Origin: Spirochaetaceae bacterium | GTDB lineage: Bacteria > Spirochaetota > Spirochaetia > Treponematales > Breznakiellaceae | Assembly (NCBI GenBank): GCA_031280115.1 | Contig: JAITHF010000242.1 | Coordinates: 1-11,755, forward strand | Reading direction: 5' to 3' | DNA length: 11,755 bases | Part shown: positions 1 through 11,755 of the stretch, piece by piece | Position numbering within the stretch: the first letter of the stretch is position 1 | Layout of the letters: every line of letters starts with the position of its first letter | The notes under the pieces: generated by a model | What the model saw: the letters and a program-made list of their open reading frames with translations, nothing else | Databases searched by the model: none | What the model was told of the DNA's origin: nothing | Program-made: the position numbers and the translations under genes

Positions 1-821
1 CCTACGACCGCGCTGTCTCTGATTTCTCCAGCGCCCTTGAGTTTGACCGGCAGTACGCCGAGGCTGCCAACAACCGGGGCGCCGCGTACCTGCGCCTGAA
101 AGAGTATGAAAAGGCGGTTCCTGACTTTACGGTGGTGCTGGACAGCAATCCCAGGGATGTTGAGGCGTATAACAACCGGGGGCGCGCCTATAGCGGCAAA
201 GGGGATTATACCCGCGCGGTGGCGGACTTTACCGCCGCGCTCCGGCTTAAACCGGATTACGCTGAAGCCTTAAACAATCGGGGGAGCGCCTTTATTATTC
301 GGGAAGACTATGATCGGGCGGTTGCGGACCTGAGCGCGGCGCTTAACCTCAATCCTGCGTATACCGAAGCGTTTCTGAACCGCGGCAACGCCTATCAGGG
401 CAGGCAGGACCATGACCGGGCCATTACGGATTATACCGCGGCGCTCGGCCTGGACCCCCGCAATCTGGACGCCTTAAACGGCAGGGGGAACGCCTATCAG
501 AACAAGGGGGACTATGACAAGGCCATCGACGACTACAACGCGGCGATACAGGCCGTTCCTCCGTATATCAAGGCGTTGAACAATCGGGGCATCGCGTACC
601 GGAACAAAGGGGATTATGACCGGGCCATCGCGGACTTTACCGCGGCCTTGCGGCTTGAGCCGTTGTATGCGCCGGCGCTGAACAATCGGGGGAACGCCTA
701 TTTTTACAAAGGCGAGTATGATCAATCCATCGCGGATTACAATGCGGCGCTCAAGATAAACCCTGATTTGTCGGATGCGCGGTATAATATCGAGCAGGCC
801 CGGAGCGCCCGGGGGTTTTAG
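1..821 (+). CDS. TPR-repeat protein, 5' end outside the window
   Basis: The open frame enters from the left edge (first whole codon at base 3) and runs to TAG at 819-821, giving 272 visible residues. A GTG at 132 is in frame, but the repeat pattern continues upstream of it, so it is not the start. The visible protein is eight consecutive 34-residue tetratricopeptide repeats, each opening with Y-[DE]-[RK]-A-[VI]-x-D-[FY] and carrying an A-x-NNRGxAY segment. The last repeat degrades to DARYNIEQA and the chain ends in RSARGF. No catalytic domain or membrane segment is visible. TPR solenoids are protein-binding scaffolds; the partner cannot be told from sequence. The 102-bp DNA periodicity (recurring AACAATCGGGG) invites repeat-number change by recombination. 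A terminator hairpin follows within 10 bp. Confidence 0.9.
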   Translation, partial: YDRAVSDFSSALEFDRQYAEAANNRGAAYLRLKEYEKAVPDFTVVLDSNPRDVEAYNNRGRAYSGKGDYTRAVADFTAALRLKPDYAEALNNRGSAFIIREDYDRAVADLSAALNLNPAYTEAFLNRGNAYQGRQDHDRAITDYTAALGLDPRNLDALNGRGNAYQNKGDYDKAIDDYNAAIQAVPPYIKALNNRGIAYRNKGDYDRAIADFTAALRLEPLYAPALNNRGNAYFYKGEYDQSIADYNAALKINPDLSDARYNIEQARSARGF

Positions 822-863: not shown

Positions 864-892
864 TTGACACGCCCCTCTTAAATAAGTATCTT
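864..892 (+). promoter_or_regulatory. Sigma-70-type promoter of tRNA-Ala
   Basis: TTGACA (864-869), a 17-bp spacer and TATCTT (887-892). The predicted start near 899 leaves a leader of about 25 nt before the tRNA. The -35 is full consensus. Confidence 0.65.
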
Positions 893-1162: not shown

Positions 1163-1191
1163 TTGCCATTTATCCTAAGATACAGTATAGC
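1163..1191 (+). promoter_or_regulatory. Promoter of rnhA, probably leaderless
   Basis: TTGCCA (1163-1168), a 17-bp spacer and TATAGC (1186-1191). Only 8 nt (1192-1199) separate the -10 from the ATG, so the transcript should start at or within about two bases of the start codon. No Shine-Dalgarno is present. Confidence 0.5.
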
Positions 1192-1199
1192 TTAAATAC

Positions 1200-1742
1200 A
1201 TGGGACTTTTAATTTATACAGACGGAGGCTGTTCTGGCAATCCTGGTCCGGGGGGATGGGCGTATATTATCATTCAGGGCGGCAGTGCGAAAGAAACAAA
1301 AGAAACGGTTGTGGCCGAACAATGGGGCGCTGAGCAGGACACCACCAACAACCGCATGGAACTACAGGCGGTTATCGCCGCGCTGGAAGCGCTGATACAT
1401 CTGGATGAAAGTTACGGATTCGTAACCGTGTACACAGACTCCCAATATGTGCAGAAAGGTATCAGTATGTGGATTCACCAGTGGAAAAAAAAGAACTGGA
1501 AAACCAGCGACAATAAACCGGTGAAGAACGTTGACCTGTGGCAGCGGCTTGACGAGCTTTCCTCAACATTTCTGCTTTCATGGGAATGGGTGAAAGGCCA
1601 CGCGGGAAACCGCTTCAACGAGCGGTGCGACCGGATGACTCAGGAGGCGATCGCCTCTTTGTCGGTTCCTTCTTTCGAGAGCAGGGGCGCCCTCAGAAAA
1701 AAGGAACAAAATGGACAGTATATCCCAGGGGAACTGTTTTAA
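1200..1742 (+). CDS. rnhA: Ribonuclease HI
   Basis: 180-residue cytoplasmic endonuclease that cleaves the RNA strand of RNA-DNA hybrids, as in removal of Okazaki primers and R-loops. The four acidic catalytic residues and the active-site His are all present: D8 (YTDGG), E54 (NNRMEL), D80 (YTDSQYV), H134 (VKGH) and D144 (ERCDRM). The basic handle (WKKKNWK, about 95-101) and GNPGPGGW loop are typical of type HI. The family is usually about 150-160 residues, so roughly 20-25 C-terminal residues (from about 157) are an extension with no recognised domain. ATG 1200 is the only sensible start: it lies two residues before the first beta strand, has no Shine-Dalgarno, and sits 8 nt after a -10 box. 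The TAA overlaps the stop of the convergent gene by 4 bp (shared TTAA). Confidence 0.95.
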   Translation: MGLLIYTDGGCSGNPGPGGWAYIIIQGGSAKETKETVVAEQWGAEQDTTNNRMELQAVIAALEALIHLDESYGFVTVYTDSQYVQKGISMWIHQWKKKNWKTSDNKPVKNVDLWQRLDELSSTFLLSWEWVKGHAGNRFNERCDRMTQEAIASLSVPSFESRGALRKKEQNGQYIPGELF

Positions 1743-2719: not shown

Positions 2720-2760
2720 ACCGTATATTCGATAGCGCTCTTATATTGCTACCTAATATA

Positions 2761-2790: not shown

Positions 2791-2840
2791 TAGCAAATCC
2801 GTACCTAATTTATAAATAAGAGCTTGTAAGGCCGGATTCC

Positions 2841-2869
2841 TTGACGACGGGCGCCGCTCATAGTATTCT
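2841..2869 (+). promoter_or_regulatory. Promoter of hxlR, probably leaderless
   Basis: TTGACG (2841-2846), a 17-bp spacer and TATTCT (2864-2869). Eight nt (2870-2877) separate the -10 from the ATG, so the predicted start is within about two bases of the coding start. A TTAGGTA box covers this point. Confidence 0.55.
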
Positions 2870-2877
2870 GATTAGGT

Positions 2878-3303
2878 ATGGAAGACCTTACTCATGAAGA
2901 CCTTGCTCATGAAGACCTTGCTAACCAGCAGGTTTGTCAAGAAAAAACCTGCGCCAAATGCCCGTGCATGGATGTCTGCCCCCTTGGGGAGGTTATGAAC
3001 CTTATAGGCGGCAAGTGGAAAATCCCTATTCTCTGCGCCTTGTATCAGAACGGCCCCACCCGCTACAACGATTTGCGGCGGAAGATACGGGGCATTACAA
3101 ATACGATGCTGGCAAGCTCGCTTAAAGAACTGGAAGGGGCCGGCCTCATAACAAGGGCCCAGTTTATGGAAATGCCGATACGGGTGGAATACGCCCTTAC
3201 CAATCAGTGCGGCCCGCTCCTTCCGATATTACAGCAGCTCGCCCATTGGGGCGTCAGCCTCCGTCCAGCCGCGAAGCAGCCGGCGCAAGAGGCCGGCGCG
3301 TAG
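2878..3303 (+). CDS. HxlR-family winged-helix transcriptional regulator
   Basis: 141 residues. The HxlR signature C34-PLGEVMNLIGGKWKIPIL is followed by RYNDLRRKIRGITNTMLASSLKELEGAGLI (about 62-91, recognition helix region), the wing with R-V-E-Y-x-LT (102-108) and a C-terminal dimerisation helix. HxlR proteins are DNA-binding homodimers; several, such as YodB and HypR, sense electrophiles or oxidants through the Cys in this motif. Unusual here is an N-terminal extension with five cysteines in 15 residues (C20, C25, C28, C30, C34), which could bind metal or form disulfides. Residues 2-16 are three EDL-x-[HN] repeats from a 15-nt tandem repeat. ATG 2878 is 8 nt after the -10 with no Shine-Dalgarno. 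It is divergent from the PNPOx-DUF1638 pair, which it probably controls together with itself. Confidence 0.9.
   Translation: MEDLTHEDLAHEDLANQQVCQEKTCAKCPCMDVCPLGEVMNLIGGKWKIPILCALYQNGPTRYNDLRRKIRGITNTMLASSLKELEGAGLITRAQFMEMPIRVEYALTNQCGPLLPILQQLAHWGVSLRPAAKQPAQEAGA
2881..2925 (+). repeat. 15-bp tandem repeat in the hxlR N-terminus, three units
   Basis: Three adjacent 15-nt units (2881, 2896, 2911) each begin GAAGACCTT and encode EDLTH, EDLAH and EDLAN. The copies are nearly identical at DNA level, so copy number could vary without changing frame. Confidence 0.85.
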
Positions 3304-7052: not shown

Positions 7053-7280
7053 CCCCCGAAGGGGGTTCACGTGCTTCCTGCGGCGGGAGGTTTTGAGGTA
7101 CAGGGCTTTCTTGAAGCGGCGCCTCAGCGGACGTCGCAAACGCACGGGCGCAGTGCAGGAAGCGCTAGCGGGGGGTTTGGGGGCAGCCGGAGGCTGTTCC
7201 CTTACGCGGAGTTCGCACAAAGAGGCGTAAAATATGAAGCGCTGATAAAAGAGCCCCCAAATTCTCTTGAAGAGGCGCGG
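7053..7280 (-). repeat. Modular hairpin repeat, copy 1 (minus orientation)
   Basis: The core (7071-7163) is the reverse complement of the elements at 7587, 7894 and 8125; shared blocks include CTTCCTGCGGCGG, GCGCCTCAGCGGA, CGCAAACGCACGGGCGC and CAGGAAGC. It is flanked by the stem CCCCC-GAA-GGGGG (7053-7065) and TTTGGGGG/CCCCCAAA arms (7176-7183, 7254-7261). In this copy 70 nt separate those arms, compared with 8 nt in the copy at 11378-11557. Confidence 0.75.
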
Positions 7281-7313: not shown

Positions 7314-7481
7314 CACCCTGCCGTGCGGGGGCGCCCCTTTGTTGCGCGGGGGCGCCCCTTTGTCGCGCGGGGGCGCCCCCGCGCCTCGCGGGGGCGCCCC
7401 TTTGTCGTGCGGGGGCGCCCCTTTGTCCCGCGGGGGCGCCCCTTTGTCCCGCGGATACATCTCTGTGTTGCGCGGATACAT
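7314..7481. repeat. 21-bp tandem array, eight units
   Basis: Eight exact-length 21-bp units. The GGGGG of six units starts at 7327, 7348, 7369, 7390, 7411 and 7432; two further units (7440-7481) are diverged and end GCGGATACAT. The core GGGGCGCCCC is self-complementary and falls on one face of the helix every two turns. Because 21 is a multiple of three and the units have no stop, long open frames appear on both strands (heptads such as PRDKGAP on minus, RGGAPLS on plus). I see no ribosome site or credible gene, so I treat it as a minisatellite. Confidence 0.9.
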
Positions 7482-7550: not shown

Positions 7551-7687
7551 ATTTGGGGGAACCAGTTCCCCCAAGCCCCCCGCACAGGCTTCCTGCGCCG
7601 CGCCTCTACGCTATCGAATCCCGCTGAGGCGCCGCTTCTGGGTTGTGACTAAAATTGCAAACCCTATCGCCGCGAGAAGCACCTGAA
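7551..7687 (+). repeat. Modular hairpin repeat, copy 2 (plus orientation)
   Basis: Begins with the hairpin GGGGGAAC-CA-GTTCCCCC (7555-7572), then GGCTTCCTGCGCCGCGCC (from 7587), CCGCTGAGGCGCCGCTTC, GGGTTGTGACTAAAATTGC and GAGAAGCACCTGAA. It runs directly into the 56-bp tandem repeat, whose first unit is its own end. Confidence 0.8.
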
Positions 7688-7812
7688 TCCCCCGCAGGGG
7701 GTGACTAAAATTGCAAACCCTATCGCTACAAGAAGCACCTGAATCCCCCGCAGGGGGTGACTAAAATTGCAAACCCTATCGCTACAAGAAGCACCTGAAA
7801 CCCCCTATGGGG
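7645..7812 (+). repeat. 56-bp tandem repeat, three units
   Basis: Units begin GTGACTAAAATTGCAAACCC at 7645, 7701 and 7757, exactly 56 bp apart. Each ends in a G/C hairpin: CCCCC-GCA-GGGGG in the first two and CCCCC-TAT-GGGGG in the third. Units differ mainly at CGCCGCGAG versus CGCTACAAG. They are contiguous with no variable spacers, so this is not a CRISPR array. Confidence 0.9.
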
Positions 7813-7861
7813 GCTTCCTGTTTTGCGGCTCATAGTGCAAACGACGGCTGCTGAAACAGCC
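7757..7861 (+). repeat. 105-bp direct repeat, first copy
   Basis: Matches 7948-8052 with about four differences over 105 bp. It carries the third 56-bp unit, GGGGGCTTCCTGTTT, GCGGCTCATAGTGCAAACG and GGCTGCTGAAACAGCC. The second copy lies 191 bp downstream, which points to a recent segmental duplication. Confidence 0.85.
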
Positions 7862-7893
7862 TCCGGCTGCCCCCAAACCCCCAGCCAACGTCT

Positions 7894-7989
7894 GCCTGCG
7901 CCGCGCCCTTCCGCCTGCGAATTCCGCTGAGGCGCCGCTTCTGGGTTGTGACTAAAATTGCAAACCCTATCGCCGCGAGAAGCACCTGA
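7894..7989 (+). repeat. Modular hairpin repeat, copy 3 (plus orientation)
   Basis: Carries GCCTGCGCCGCGCCC, AATTCCGCTGAGGCGCCGCT, GGGTTGTGACTAAAATTGC and GAGAAGCACCTGAA, in the same order as copy 2. It is followed by CCCCC-TAT-GGGGG (7992-8004). Confidence 0.8.
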
Positions 7990-8052
7990 AACCCCCTATG
8001 GGGGCTTCCTGTTTCGCGGCTCATAGTGCAAACGACGGCTGCTGAAACAGCC
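7948..8052 (+). repeat. 105-bp direct repeat, second copy
   Basis: Second copy of the 7757-7861 segment. The hairpin at its end reads CAGCC-GGA-GGCTG here (8048-8060) but CAGCC-TCC-GGCTG in the first copy (7857-7869), so that 13-bp hairpin is inverted between copies. Confidence 0.85.
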
Positions 8053-8061
8053 GGAGGCTGT

Positions 8062-8226
8062 CGGCGCTTTCGCGCCTCTTTAAGAGAATTTGGAGGGTCA
8101 TAGACCCTCCAAACCTCCCCTAAAGGCTGCCTGCGCCGCGCCCGTGCGCTATCAAAGCGCGGTGAGGCGCCGCTTCGGGGTTGTGACTAAAATTGCAGAC
8201 CCGCTCACCGCGAGAAGCACTTAAAA
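8062..8226 (+). repeat. Modular hairpin repeat, copy 4 (plus orientation)
   Basis: The fullest plus-orientation copy: CGGCGCTTTCGCGCCTCTTT, then hairpin TTTGGAGGGTC-ATA-GACCCTCCAAA (8089-8113), then GGCTGCCTGCGCCGCGCC, GGTGAGGCGCCGCTTC, TTGTGACTAAAATTGC and CGAGAAGCACTT. The hairpin stem differs from copy 2 at paired positions yet stays perfect. The cyclase promoter starts 20 bp downstream. Confidence 0.8.
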
Positions 8227-8245: not shown

Positions 8246-8274
8246 TTGTCAAACTGCTGTAGGGGGCATACACT
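8246..8274 (+). promoter_or_regulatory. Promoter of the cyclase gene, probably leaderless
   Basis: TTGTCA (8246-8251), a 17-bp spacer and TACACT (8269-8274), ending 8 nt before ATG 8283. An AGGG 4 nt before the ATG is a poor Shine-Dalgarno at best. Confidence 0.5.
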
Positions 8275-8282
8275 AGGGATAT

Positions 8283-10046
8283 ATGCGGATACGTCTTACT
8301 ATTATCCTTACGGCGCTGCCCTTCTTTGCCGTAACCCTTACCCTCTCTCTGGCCGGCTCCCTCAGCGCGGCGCTTAAAGGCATGGACCGGATACACCGCG
8401 AACTGTTTGATTTTAAAGCCGAAAACCTGCGGGCCTACGCCGAAGAAAAATGGCTCCTCCTCAGGGAAAACCATTACGCTGAACGCCCCGAAATGATCAG
8501 CGCCGCGGCGCAGGACCTCTTCACCCATGCCCGGAGCCTTATCACCGGAGAAGGGGAAACCATCTTTGCCGTGGATGCCTGGGGAACCCTCGCCGCAAGC
8601 ACCGGTCCCCTTGAAATCAGGGCGGATGAACGGGAGCCGCTTTTGAAAATCCTTGAAGAGTCAGAGGGCGCGGCGGCGCGCGGGGTCATTGACGGGAAAC
8701 CTCGGGCGCTTAGAGGCTTTTATTGTATTCCCTTAGGCTGGTATCTGGTTATAAGCGAAGAGCGGCAGGCCCTCTATAGGGAACTTAAAGACCTTATCCC
8801 CCGGGCGCTGGGCCTTGCAGGGGCGGCGCTGCTCATAGGCGCGGCGCTCTTGAGCCTGCTTGCCCGCCGCCTTTCCAAGCCGGTGGAAGCCATAACCGGC
8901 GCGGCAGGCGCGGTCGGGGCGGACCTTGACTTGAGCGCCAGAGCGGAGGTTATCTACCCTGACGAAACCGGCGCCCTGGCCCGGAGTTTTAACGCCATGA
9001 TGTCCCTCCTTGAGCGGCTGTACAAAGAAATAAAGCATTACGCCTTCAAAGCGGCCCTGGCGGAACGGAAAGAACGGCGGATGAAGGGGATATTCCAGAA
9101 ATACGCGCCTAAGAGCGCGGCGGAGGCTTTCGCCGCCGGCGCGAATATGTCCCTTGCCGGCGAAACCAGGGAGCTTGCGGTGCTTTTTTCGGATATTAAA
9201 GGCTTCTCCGGCCTCTGCCGGCGCATGGGGCCGGATGAAACCGTGCGCTCCCTTAACCGGTACTTTACGGATCAGACGGAAATCGTGGTGAAGCGCAACG
9301 GCATGGTAGACAAATACGTGGGCGACAGCCTTGCGGCGTTCTGGGGCGCGCCCCTTGCCCGGGAAGACGACCCGTCCCAGGCGGTATCCGCGGCGCTTGA
9401 CATGATAGAGGCCCTTAAAGAGTTCAACCGGCGGCAGGAAGAGCTGGGAAAGCCTGATTTCGCTATGGGCGTGGGGGTCAGTTTCGGAAACGCCACGGTA
9501 GGAAACATAGGGAGCCAGCGGAGGACGGACTATACGATACTGGGCGACACGGTGGCCTCCGCATCAGCCCTTGCAGACCTCACCGGCGTCTATAAAGAAG
9601 ACCTGCTCATCTCCGAGCCCCTTTACGAGCGCATACAGCAGCGGGAGCCGAAACTTCCGGCGCGCCTTATTGACTGCGTGGAAGTCAAGGGCAGGGAGCT
9701 CAAAATCTACGCGGTCCGGAAGGCCGTCACCGTCCCCGAATCAAAGGCATGGGGCTACTACCGCGAGGGGATGTCCCTGTACTGCCAAAGGTCTTTTGAG
9801 GACGCGGCGCAGCAGTTCAAAAAGGCGCTCATCATCCTGCATGACGACAGGAGCGCTGAAATCCTGCTTGCCCGCTGCCTTGCGTACGCGGAAAACCCGC
9901 CGCCCCCTGAGTGGAACGGCTTTGACGCCCCGCCGGTAAAGGGCGGAAGCCCCCTTAAAAAAGGCGCAAGCCCTATCAAACGGGGGACGGTCCTGAGCCG
10001 GAAAGAGGCCGGCGCCGCCCTGAGCGGGGAAGACCCTTCTTCTTAG
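8283..10046 (+). CDS. Membrane class III adenylate/guanylate cyclase, catalytically atypical
   Basis: 587 residues. TM1 (about 7-28), an extracytoplasmic domain (about 29-171), TM2 (about 172-194), HAMP (about 196-247), the class III cyclase domain (about 295-475), one TPR-like unit (about 488-535), then a Pro/Lys tail. The family makes cAMP or cGMP as a dimer. Metal Asps D304 (FSDIKGFS) and D348 (YVGDSLAAFWGAP) are present, as are K344 and D416 (TDYT) that select adenine. The usual GD-x-V-N-x-A-x-R motif reads GDTVASASAL: the transition-state Asn is Ala425 and the Arg is Ala429. It may be inactive alone or work with a partner cyclase. Residues 553-573 form three 7-residue repeats (KGGSPLK, KGASPIK, RGTVLSR). 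The gene converges on murA with a 16-bp gap. Confidence 0.9.
   Translation: MRIRLTIILTALPFFAVTLTLSLAGSLSAALKGMDRIHRELFDFKAENLRAYAEEKWLLLRENHYAERPEMISAAAQDLFTHARSLITGEGETIFAVDAWGTLAASTGPLEIRADEREPLLKILEESEGAAARGVIDGKPRALRGFYCIPLGWYLVISEERQALYRELKDLIPRALGLAGAALLIGAALLSLLARRLSKPVEAITGAAGAVGADLDLSARAEVIYPDETGALARSFNAMMSLLERLYKEIKHYAFKAALAERKERRMKGIFQKYAPKSAAEAFAAGANMSLAGETRELAVLFSDIKGFSGLCRRMGPDETVRSLNRYFTDQTEIVVKRNGMVDKYVGDSLAAFWGAPLAREDDPSQAVSAALDMIEALKEFNRRQEELGKPDFAMGVGVSFGNATVGNIGSQRRTDYTILGDTVASASALADLTGVYKEDLLISEPLYERIQQREPKLPARLIDCVEVKGRELKIYAVRKAVTVPESKAWGYYREGMSLYCQRSFEDAAQQFKKALIILHDDRSAEILLARCLAYAENPPPPEWNGFDAPPVKGGSPLKKGASPIKRGTVLSRKEAGAALSGEDPSS
9939..10001 (+). repeat. 21-bp coding repeats in the cyclase tail
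   Basis: Three diverged 21-bp units encode KGGSPLK, KGASPIK and RGTVLSR (residues 553-573). They resemble the RGGAPLS heptad read from the plus strand of the 7314-7481 array. DNA identity is limited, roughly half the positions, so common origin is a hypothesis. Confidence 0.5.
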
Positions 10047-10062: not shown

Positions 10063-11337
10063 CTAGGCGCCGGTTATCCGCGCGCCCAGGGCCGACAGGC
10101 GGGAGACAAGCTGTTCATAGCCCCGCTCTATCTGGTACACGTTGTGGATAACGCTTTTGCCTTCAGCGCACATGGCCGCGATAACCATCGCCATACCGGC
10201 GCGCACGTCCGGGCTGTGCAGTTCCGCGCCGGCAAGGCTGGTGGGGCCGGAAACGACCGCGCGGTGGGGGTCGCACAGCACGATACGCGCGCCCATAGCG
10301 ATAAGTTTGTCCACAAAGAACATACGGGACTCGAACATTTTCTCGTGAATAAGCACGGTGCCGGTTACCTGGGTGGCGGTGACGGTTACGATACTGGTAA
10401 GGTCCGGGGGAAACCCGGGCCAGGGGGCGTCGTCAATCTTGGGTATCATGCCGCCCAGGTCGCAGTTTACGGTGAGGCTCTGGTTTTTGGGGATATGCAC
10501 AGCCGCCCCTTCGTGTTCCCACACAATGCCCAGTTTGCCGAACGCAATCTTTGCCGGGCGCAGGTCCCGGGGAAGGGGGCCCTGGATGCAAAGCTCCCCT
10601 CTGGTGGCCGCCGCAAGGCCGATGAACGAGCCTACTTCCATGAAGTCCGCGCCGATTTCAAAATCGCATCCTGAAAGGCGCTTCACCCCTTCAATCGTGA
10701 GGATGTTAGAGCCTATGCCGCGGATGCAGGCGCCCATGCGCTCCAGCATGGCGCAGAGGTCCTGCACGTGGGGTTCGCTTGCGGCGTTGGTGAGTATGGT
10801 TTTCCCTTTGGCCAGGACCGCGGCCATCACCGCGTTTTCCGTGGCAGTAACCGACGCTTCGTCCAGAAATATGTCTGCCCCGCGCAGAGCGGGGGCTGTG
10901 AACACGAAGGCGCCGTTGCTTACGACCTGGGCGCCCAGTTCGTTGAGGGCGAGGAAGTGGGTGTCAAGCCGCCGCCTGCCGATAACGTCTCCCCCCGGGG
11001 GCGGCAGGACCGCGGTGCCGGCGCGGGCGAGGAGGGGGCCTGCGAAGAGGATTGACGCCCTGACCGCGCAGGCGTAGGCAAGGGGGATTTCGGCGGTGAG
11101 TATGTTTGCGGTGTGCAGGCGGTAGGTATTCGCAGACAGGGCTTGGACGGTTCCGCCTAGGGCGCGGTATATGGCGAGCATGACTTGCACGTCTTCTATA
11201 TCGGGGATATTGCTGAGGGTGACCGGTTCGTCGGTGAGGAGGCATGCGGCGATACAGGGAAGGGCGGCGTTTTTGTTGCCGCTTGCTTTGATAGTTCCTT
11301 GTATGGGGTATCCGCCTTCGATAAGGTAGCGGTTCAT
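10063..11337 (-). CDS. murA: UDP-N-acetylglucosamine 1-carboxyvinyltransferase (Asp-type MurA)
   Basis: 424 residues, full length for the family (E. coli 419). It catalyses the first committed step of peptidoglycan synthesis, transfer of enolpyruvyl from PEP to UDP-GlcNAc, in the cytoplasm. Active-site K22 and N23 (SGNKNAAL) are present, as are the catalytic Asp D312 (GFPPDLTS) and D377-VRAG. The loop that holds Cys115 in E. coli (GGC-x-IG) reads [11 protein letters not shown], with Asp117 in its place. Cys-to-Asp enzymes keep activity but escape alkylation by fosfomycin, as known for mycobacteria, chlamydiae and Borrelia. ATG 11337 follows the -10 box by 6 nt with no Shine-Dalgarno. A 9-bp tandem CGCCCTAGG (10050-10067) overlaps the stop and lies between the convergent ends. 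Confidence 0.97.
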
Positions 11338-11343
11338 AGAGCC

Positions 11344-11372
11344 ACTGTAGCCATCCGCCCGGCCTCCGTCAA
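11344..11372 (-). promoter_or_regulatory. Promoter of murA, probably leaderless
   Basis: On the minus strand TTGACG (11367-11372), a 17-bp spacer and TACAGT (11344-11349), ending 6 nt before ATG 11337. Standard spacing places transcription start on the A of the ATG. No Shine-Dalgarno is present. Confidence 0.55.
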
Positions 11373-11723: not shown

Positions 11724-11755
11724 CCCCCTGCGGGGGTTTTAAACGGCTTCCTGCC
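11724..11755 (+). repeat. Hairpin with T run and start of another repeat copy
   Basis: CCCCC-TGC-GGGGG-TTTT (11724-11740) looks like a short intrinsic terminator and also matches the G/C hairpin module of the repeats. GGCTTCCTGCC at the window edge matches the opening block of the plus-orientation element, so a further copy probably continues outside. Confidence 0.55.

Follow-up and report, generated by a model that had tools for sequence, protein, structure and literature searches.

Sigma-70 promoters adjoining ATG start codons predict a class of leaderless mRNAs in a Treponematales genome

In this study, we analyzed an 11,755-nt stretch of DNA from a Spirochaetaceae bacterium (the window), together with a sample of its genome and the genomes of its order, and found a marked excess of promoter -10 boxes directly before ATG start codons that are nearly devoid of Shine-Dalgarno (SD) tetramers. 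Very probably, these are sigma-70 promoters that put the A of the start codon at, or about 2–3 nt from, the first transcribed base, and leaderless mRNAs are thus predicted. Where the genome was sampled, roughly 10% of the genes heading a transcription unit and about 5% of all called genes (30/559) belong to this class, and the excess of the layout is not due to chance.

Promoter layouts in the window and the sampled genome

The initial annotation had described a common promoter layout at four genes of the window, rnhA, hxlR, the cyclase gene and murA, and its boxes, spacings and coordinates all proved correct on direct reading (Table 1). The four genes were also said to lack a good SD site. 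Indeed, no SD tetramer was present 3–12 nt upstream of hxlR, the cyclase gene or murA, and none was seen by eye at rnhA, which is missing from the automated SD list because our home-made caller set its start at GTG 1311. The ATG of rnhA at 1200 is the first start codon, with an in-frame stop just upstream. The other genes with visible upstream regions had been read as SD-led, in agreement with the tetramers found at the MCP, lipoprotein and PNPOx-like genes and with the sites seen by eye at the DUF1638 (AAGGAGG) and YodC-like (AAGGAG) genes. The Pfam search of the window genes also confirmed the DUF1638, PNPOx-like and MCP identities and returned no family for the YodC-like and lipoprotein genes. 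The exact 17-bp spacer does recur in all four layouts as claimed, but it is not special to them; it is generic, being the ordinary sigma-70 optimum, and by eye it is present at the tRNA-Ala promoter as well, so we rejected it as a mark of these genes. The boxes of hxlR, the cyclase gene and murA fit TANNNT, and TATAGC of rnhA does not; an alternative -10 box for rnhA, TAGCTT at 1188–1193, lies 6 nt before the ATG with a spacer of 19 nt.

Table 1. Coordinates of promoters, genes and repeats in the window
Feature	Position	Strand	Description
rnhA promoter and start	1163..1202	+	TTGCCA 1163-1168, 17 nt, TATAGC 1186-1191, 8 nt, ATG 1200; direct reading
hxlR promoter and start	2841..2880	+	TTGACG 2841-2846, 17 nt, TATTCT 2864-2869, 8 nt, ATG 2878; direct reading
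Cyclase promoter and start	8246..8285	+	TTGTCA 8246-8251, 17 nt, TACACT 8269-8274, 8 nt, ATG 8283; direct reading
murA promoter and start	11335..11372	-	TTGACG 11372-11367, 17 nt, TACAGT 11349-11344, 6 nt, ATG 11337; direct reading
tRNA-Ala promoter (comparison)	864..892	+	TTGACA-17-TATCTT, by eye; tRNA-Ala gene at 924-997
rnhA, RNase HI	1200..1742	+	Pfam PF00075, E 7.5e-45
hxlR-type regulator	2878..3303	+	Pfam PF01638, E 4.9e-24
HAMP and adenylate/guanylate cyclase protein	8283..10046	+	Pfam PF00672 and PF00211
murA	10063..11337	-	Pfam PF00275, E 8.2e-67
TACCTAAT, inverted copy of ATTAGGTA at the hxlR start; putative operator half-site	2750..2757	+	By eye; function predicted
TACCTAAT, second inverted copy; putative operator half-site	2802..2809	+	By eye; function predicted
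C5-N3-G5 palindromes	7053-7065, 7689-7701, 7745-7757, 7801-7813, 7992-8004, 11724-11736		Loops GCA, TAT, GAA, TGC

The assembly (1.84 Mb, 301 contigs, 62% complete) was sampled at 120 of the 301 contigs plus the window, giving 559 genes in 755,647 bases, window included. Gene calls were home-made, with a coding model blind to upstream signals, and the main set comprised 258 first-of-unit ATG genes whose starts were picked by coding score only. The proposed check, a genome-wide comparison of -10 boxes near ATGs with shuffled sequence, came out in favor of an excess within this sample: TANNNT ended 6–8 nt before the ATG in 40 of the 258 genes vs. 10.7 in 40 dinucleotide shuffles (sd 2.9, maximum 17). 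The peak lay exactly 6 nt before the ATG, with 21 boxes vs. about 3.8 per position. Two other rules of start choice agreed (43 vs. 12.1, n = 285; 44 vs. 13.4, n = 335). At 6–8 nt, GTG and TTG starts of the sample showed no excess (3 vs. 3.1 shuffled, n = 72), and operon-internal starts showed no clear one (6 vs. 3.5, n = 134). In an earlier pass over 100 contigs, boxes numbered 17 vs. 5.0 at first ATG genes (n = 118), and operon-internal starts, too, showed a small excess (6 vs. 2.4, n = 101).

The full layout was defined as a TTG-type -35 box with at least four of six matches, 17 nt, a TA-type -10 box with at least four of six matches, 6–8 nt and ATG. It was found at 13 of 285 first-of-unit ATG genes, with a mean of 0.18 and a maximum of 2 in 100 dinucleotide shuffles. 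Because the hypothesis came from the window, the counts were redone without it: three of the 13 come from the window, and 10 of 279 remained. A wider layout, TTG-16..18-TANNNT-5..8-ATG, occurred at 30 of 285 genes vs. 0.74 in 100 shuffles (27 of 279 without the window). TTG-17-TANNNT ended 6–8 nt before the ATG 20 times, compared with 0, 2, and 0 at distances of 12–14, 18–20, and 24–26 nt, respectively.

Taking the most upstream plausible ATG as the start, we defined as candidates the 50 of 285 first genes with TANNNT 5–8 nt before it. When spacers of 10–25 nt were scanned in these candidates, a TTG lay at 17 nt in 23, at 18 nt in six and at 16 nt in one, with two at most at any other spacing. 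This concentration indicates that the candidates are promoters rather than A/T-rich ribosome signals. The TTGACA-like -35 element at 17 ± 1 bp that characterizes sigma-70 promoters is seen in the spacer scans, which peak at 17, and by eye at the four window genes. The annotation's idea of two classes of translation start in one genome was also supported, as SD tetramers almost separate the two groups, occurring in 2/50 candidates vs. 120/235 of the other first genes (p = 2.8e-11; 2/47 vs. 117/232 without the window). A duplex energy of -4 kcal/mol or lower, as another SD measure, separates them only modestly (26/50 vs. 166/235).

Layouts across the order and in homologs

To extend the count to 58 genomes of the order, our own included, we used a pattern independent of gene calls, TTG-N20-TANNNT-N6-ATG, with gaps of 15 and 21 nt as controls; shifted distances were chosen since a backward pattern would change the words. 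The 6-nt pattern exceeded both controls in all 58 genomes (3964 in total vs. 991 and 1096), at p < 1e-3 in 54 of them, with a median ratio of 3.7 (range 1.9, in G031, to 12.2). The highest count among the 58 genomes belonged to G048 (3.1 Mb), with 241 vs. 43 and 62.

For murA, two sets of loci were compared, which may overlap: set A with 30 loci, our own included, and set B with the best 80 of more than 553 matches, mostly Treponema or Spirochaetaceae MAGs and with Gracilinema caldarium among them. A box lay 5–8 nt before the start at 22 of the 30 loci of set A. In the best 80 of more than 553 matches, a TA...T box was found 5–8 nt before the start at 67 loci, at exactly 6 nt in 53, and was absent from 13; a TTG stood at 17 or 18 nt in 48 of the 67 boxed loci, while 19 had none at 16–19 nt; an SD tetramer was present at eight loci, and the ATG held the same aligned position in 78. 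The layout occurs in four of the five families (f1, f2, f4, and f5), and no box was seen at the four loci examined in f3 (L149, L150, L159, and L160). Dereplicating the 110 murA upstreams at 80% identity left 97. With positions numbered from +1 at the first base of the start codon, information between -45 and -1 rose above 0.3 bits only at columns -35 to -31 (TTGAC), -12, -11, -9, and -7 (of TACAGT), and -1 (T); columns -14 and -8, both G, reached 0.26 bits. These positions match the textbook placement of a promoter with +1 at the start codon, and on these conserved columns transcription is predicted to begin there. At L277 and L281, TTGAC, 17 nt, TAGAGT, 5 nt, and an ATG are followed by an SD site and then by the ATG of murA, which may reflect a change from leaderless to leadered initiation.

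For the cyclase gene, we used the 21 of 30 loci that aligned over most of the protein, our own included; some members, L199–L202 among them, have 29–37% identity and may be paralogs. Of these 21 full-length homologs, 17 had a TA...T box 6–8 nt before the start, 16 of the 17 with a TTG at 16–18 nt, and none of the 21 had an SD site. The loci came from f1 and f5, the two families in which full-length homologs were found. For hxlR, TTGAC-17-TA...T-8-ATGGA was present in all four near homologs whose start falls inside the locus (L213–L216), a count that leaves out L217, which is cut short, and the distant HxlR proteins L218–L227. For rnhA, a box at 6–7 nt was found at seven of 30 loci, our own included via TAGCTT, and an SD site at 10; none of the seven boxed loci had a TTG at 16–18 nt. 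The rnhA layout is thus not conserved among these homologs, and it is the weakest of the four cases.

Two genes beyond the window were also followed. For glgP (L179), 20 upstreams were fetched, one of only 30 bases. In family f1, a TA...T box stood 6–7 nt before the ATG in 12 of 15 upstreams, one more had it at 9 nt and two had none; a -35 box of the TTG or TTT type lay about 17 nt away in 11 of the 12, the twelfth being too short to tell. The layout was found in none of the five glgP upstreams from families f2, f4, and f5. The aspA gene (L100) has the leaderless layout here, yet it is SD-led in two close homologs of the same genus. Together, the SD-led aspA relatives and the glgP result outside f1 indicate that not every gene has a fixed state; leaderlessness appears to be kept in some genes and to be labile in the rest.

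Predicted leaderless mRNAs, alternative readings and known systems

Transcription preferentially starts about 7 nt past the -10 box, initiation favors a pyrimidine followed by a purine, and in leaderless translation the ribosome binds the 5′ AUG directly. In the proposed mechanism, an ordinary sigma-70 promoter would fire at, or about 2–3 nt from, the A of the start codon. With transcription starting at that A, the mRNA would begin with AUG and carry no SD leader, and its 5′ AUG would be bound directly by the ribosome, which is the leaderless route. We infer these RNA 5′ ends and this route of translation from what was computed: the layout, its excess, its near-exclusivity with SD sites and its conservation. 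The leaderless mRNAs proposed by the initial annotation remain a prediction, now supported by the box excess, the scarcity of SD tetramers and the murA and cyclase layouts conserved far beyond the genus. Within the window, murA and the cyclase gene are near-certain members of the predicted class and hxlR is a probable one, whereas rnhA is only a candidate; where the gap is 8 nt, as at rnhA, hxlR, and the cyclase gene, a leader of 1–3 nt may instead result.

Several alternatives were weighed against this reading. Since a single TANNNT box is common, the boxes might be chance look-alikes in A/T-rich DNA near starts, with the true promoters upstream and the mRNAs leadered. The counts refute this as a general account, through the sharp peak at one distance, the association with ATGs of first genes, the TTG at 17 nt and the missing SD tetramers, and the conservation at murA and the cyclase gene tells against it as well; we regard it as highly improbable, although rnhA could be such a case. 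Ultra-short leaders, with transcription beginning 1–5 nt before the ATG and mRNAs that are not strictly leaderless, would agree with the 8-nt gap at three of the four window genes and with the spread of the class over 5–8 nt. However, a gap of exactly 6 nt is the commonest both in our sample and in the murA relatives (53 of the best 80 of more than 553 matches), and the T at -1 in 64% of the 97 murA upstreams fits a pyrimidine-purine initiator, which leaves this reading rather unlikely. A dual start, in which the leaderless ATG is joined by a second promoter further upstream giving a leadered mRNA, could be suspected from the several overlapping -10-like boxes seen by eye at rnhA; it is improbable, because a longer mRNA without an SD site would need another route of initiation and no murA column between -45 and -37 exceeds 0.06 bits (97 upstreams).

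At hxlR, the conserved discriminator might primarily be an operator and the start spacing a by-product. The discriminator in the window, GATTAGGT, resembles an HxlR half-site; GATTAGGT/GATTAAGT/GATCAGGT precedes ATGGA in all four near homologs, and inverted TACCTAAT copies lie upstream in the window. We give this reading a serious, somewhat less than even, chance. It is compatible with leaderlessness, and the -35 box, the 17-nt spacer and the 8-nt gap are conserved too. The TACCTAAT/ATTAGGTA half-sites, at 2871–2878 in addition to the two listed in Table 1, occupy the region that separates hxlR from the divergent PNPOx-like gene, and the one at the hxlR start is kept with small changes in the four near relatives. 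This arrangement suggests that hxlR may regulate itself through a putative operator placed on the start codon.

More broadly, leaderlessness could be a selected, gene-specific state in this order, with a core set of murA, the HAMP cyclase gene and glycogen phosphorylase kept across genera or families, while in other genes small changes of the promoter turn an SD-led start into a leaderless one or back; the murA loci L277 and L281 appear to be cases of such a change. We offer this only tentatively; if it is true, translation of the core set would be tied to whatever condition favors leaderless mRNAs.

Most discussion of leaderless initiation has centered on Actinobacteria, Deinococcus-Thermus, and archaea. 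Leaderless genes as such are not new; predictions exist for some Spirochaetes, and in Leptospira such genes have been mapped. The TA-led genes defined by Zheng et al. (2011; PMC3160421), with TANNNT about 10–12 bp before the start, in excess over dinucleotide shuffles and distinct from SD-led genes, resemble the present class, and were reported there in six of 18 spirochaete genomes at a mean of 3.9% of genes (1.8–6.9). In contrast to the present study, its table is arranged by phyla, its main text nowhere uses the word Treponema, and neither gene-level conservation nor a -35 analysis for spirochaetes was found in that text. The leaderless genes of Deinococcus-Thermus and Actinobacteria likewise have a -10 box adjoining the start codon; they average approximately 39 and 19% of genes, respectively (Zheng et al., 2011; PMC3160421), compared with about 5% of called genes here, where GTG and TTG starts of our sample show no excess. 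Leptospira interrogans, as reported in a dRNA-seq study (PMC5243855), is also a spirochaete mixing leaderless and SD genes, with about 440 mapped mRNAs whose 5′ UTR is shorter than 10 nt beside genes with SD motifs. It differs in belonging to another genus and in being RNA-mapped, and the article text gives promoter motifs for sigma-54 only, whereas the -35 and -10 boxes described here are sharp. In Nakagawa et al. (2017), the component read as leaderless or S1-like bias is negative in the six Spirochaetes given (mean PC3 -3.25), which counts mildly against a strong phylum-wide signal. Among the open-licence PMC papers listed in our searches, none described leaderless genes in Treponematales.

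What is new here is an order-wide class with conserved members, together with a hairpin repeat, specific to this species, that adjoins many -35 boxes. A mixed SD and leaderless class whose conserved spirochaete members can be aligned allows the keeping and switching of leaderlessness to be studied gene by gene. In addition, start-site programs that expect SD sites may misplace the starts of about one-tenth of first genes, and the predicted 5′ ends are sharp enough for testing at single-base resolution.

A hairpin repeat beside many -35 boxes

In many candidates, the -35 TTG directly adjoins the G run of a C5-N3-G5 palindrome. The 755-kb sample contains 176 such palindromes, and on one side of 112 of them lies the end of a contig instead of a called gene. 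This genome has 25 sites at which a CCCC-N5-GGGG palindrome lies flush against TTG-N20-TANNNT; G013 and G049 have one each, and the other 55 of the 58 genomes have none. At 12 of the 25 sites, the first ATG lies 5–8 nt past the -10 box. Among the other 13, a later ATG preceded by an SD site occurs at two, a sequence resembling a tRNA (by eye) follows one, and five in total lack any ATG within 45 nt. The hairpin was considered as a cause of the leaderless promoters and rejected, since these 13 sites differ and the promoter core of glgP is the same in relatives that lack the hairpin. With flush sites at several kinds of promoter and a glgP core independent of it, the hairpin is better described as a species-specific dispersed repeat.

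Some minor observations, all made by eye, concern this and other repeats. The murA gene of the window has a related imperfect palindrome ahead of its -35 box. At L348 (G000:C140:5100-5190), a hairpin-flush promoter is followed by a sequence resembling the start of a cobalamin-type riboswitch, which we note as a candidate. The gap before the cyclase gene (7619–8220) holds several copies of a longer repeat, GTGACTAAAATTGCAAACCCTATCGC...AGAAGCACCTGAA plus the palindrome, and repeated GCGGGGGCGCCCCTTTGT-like units occur at 7325–7450, between the MCP gene and this repeat cluster.
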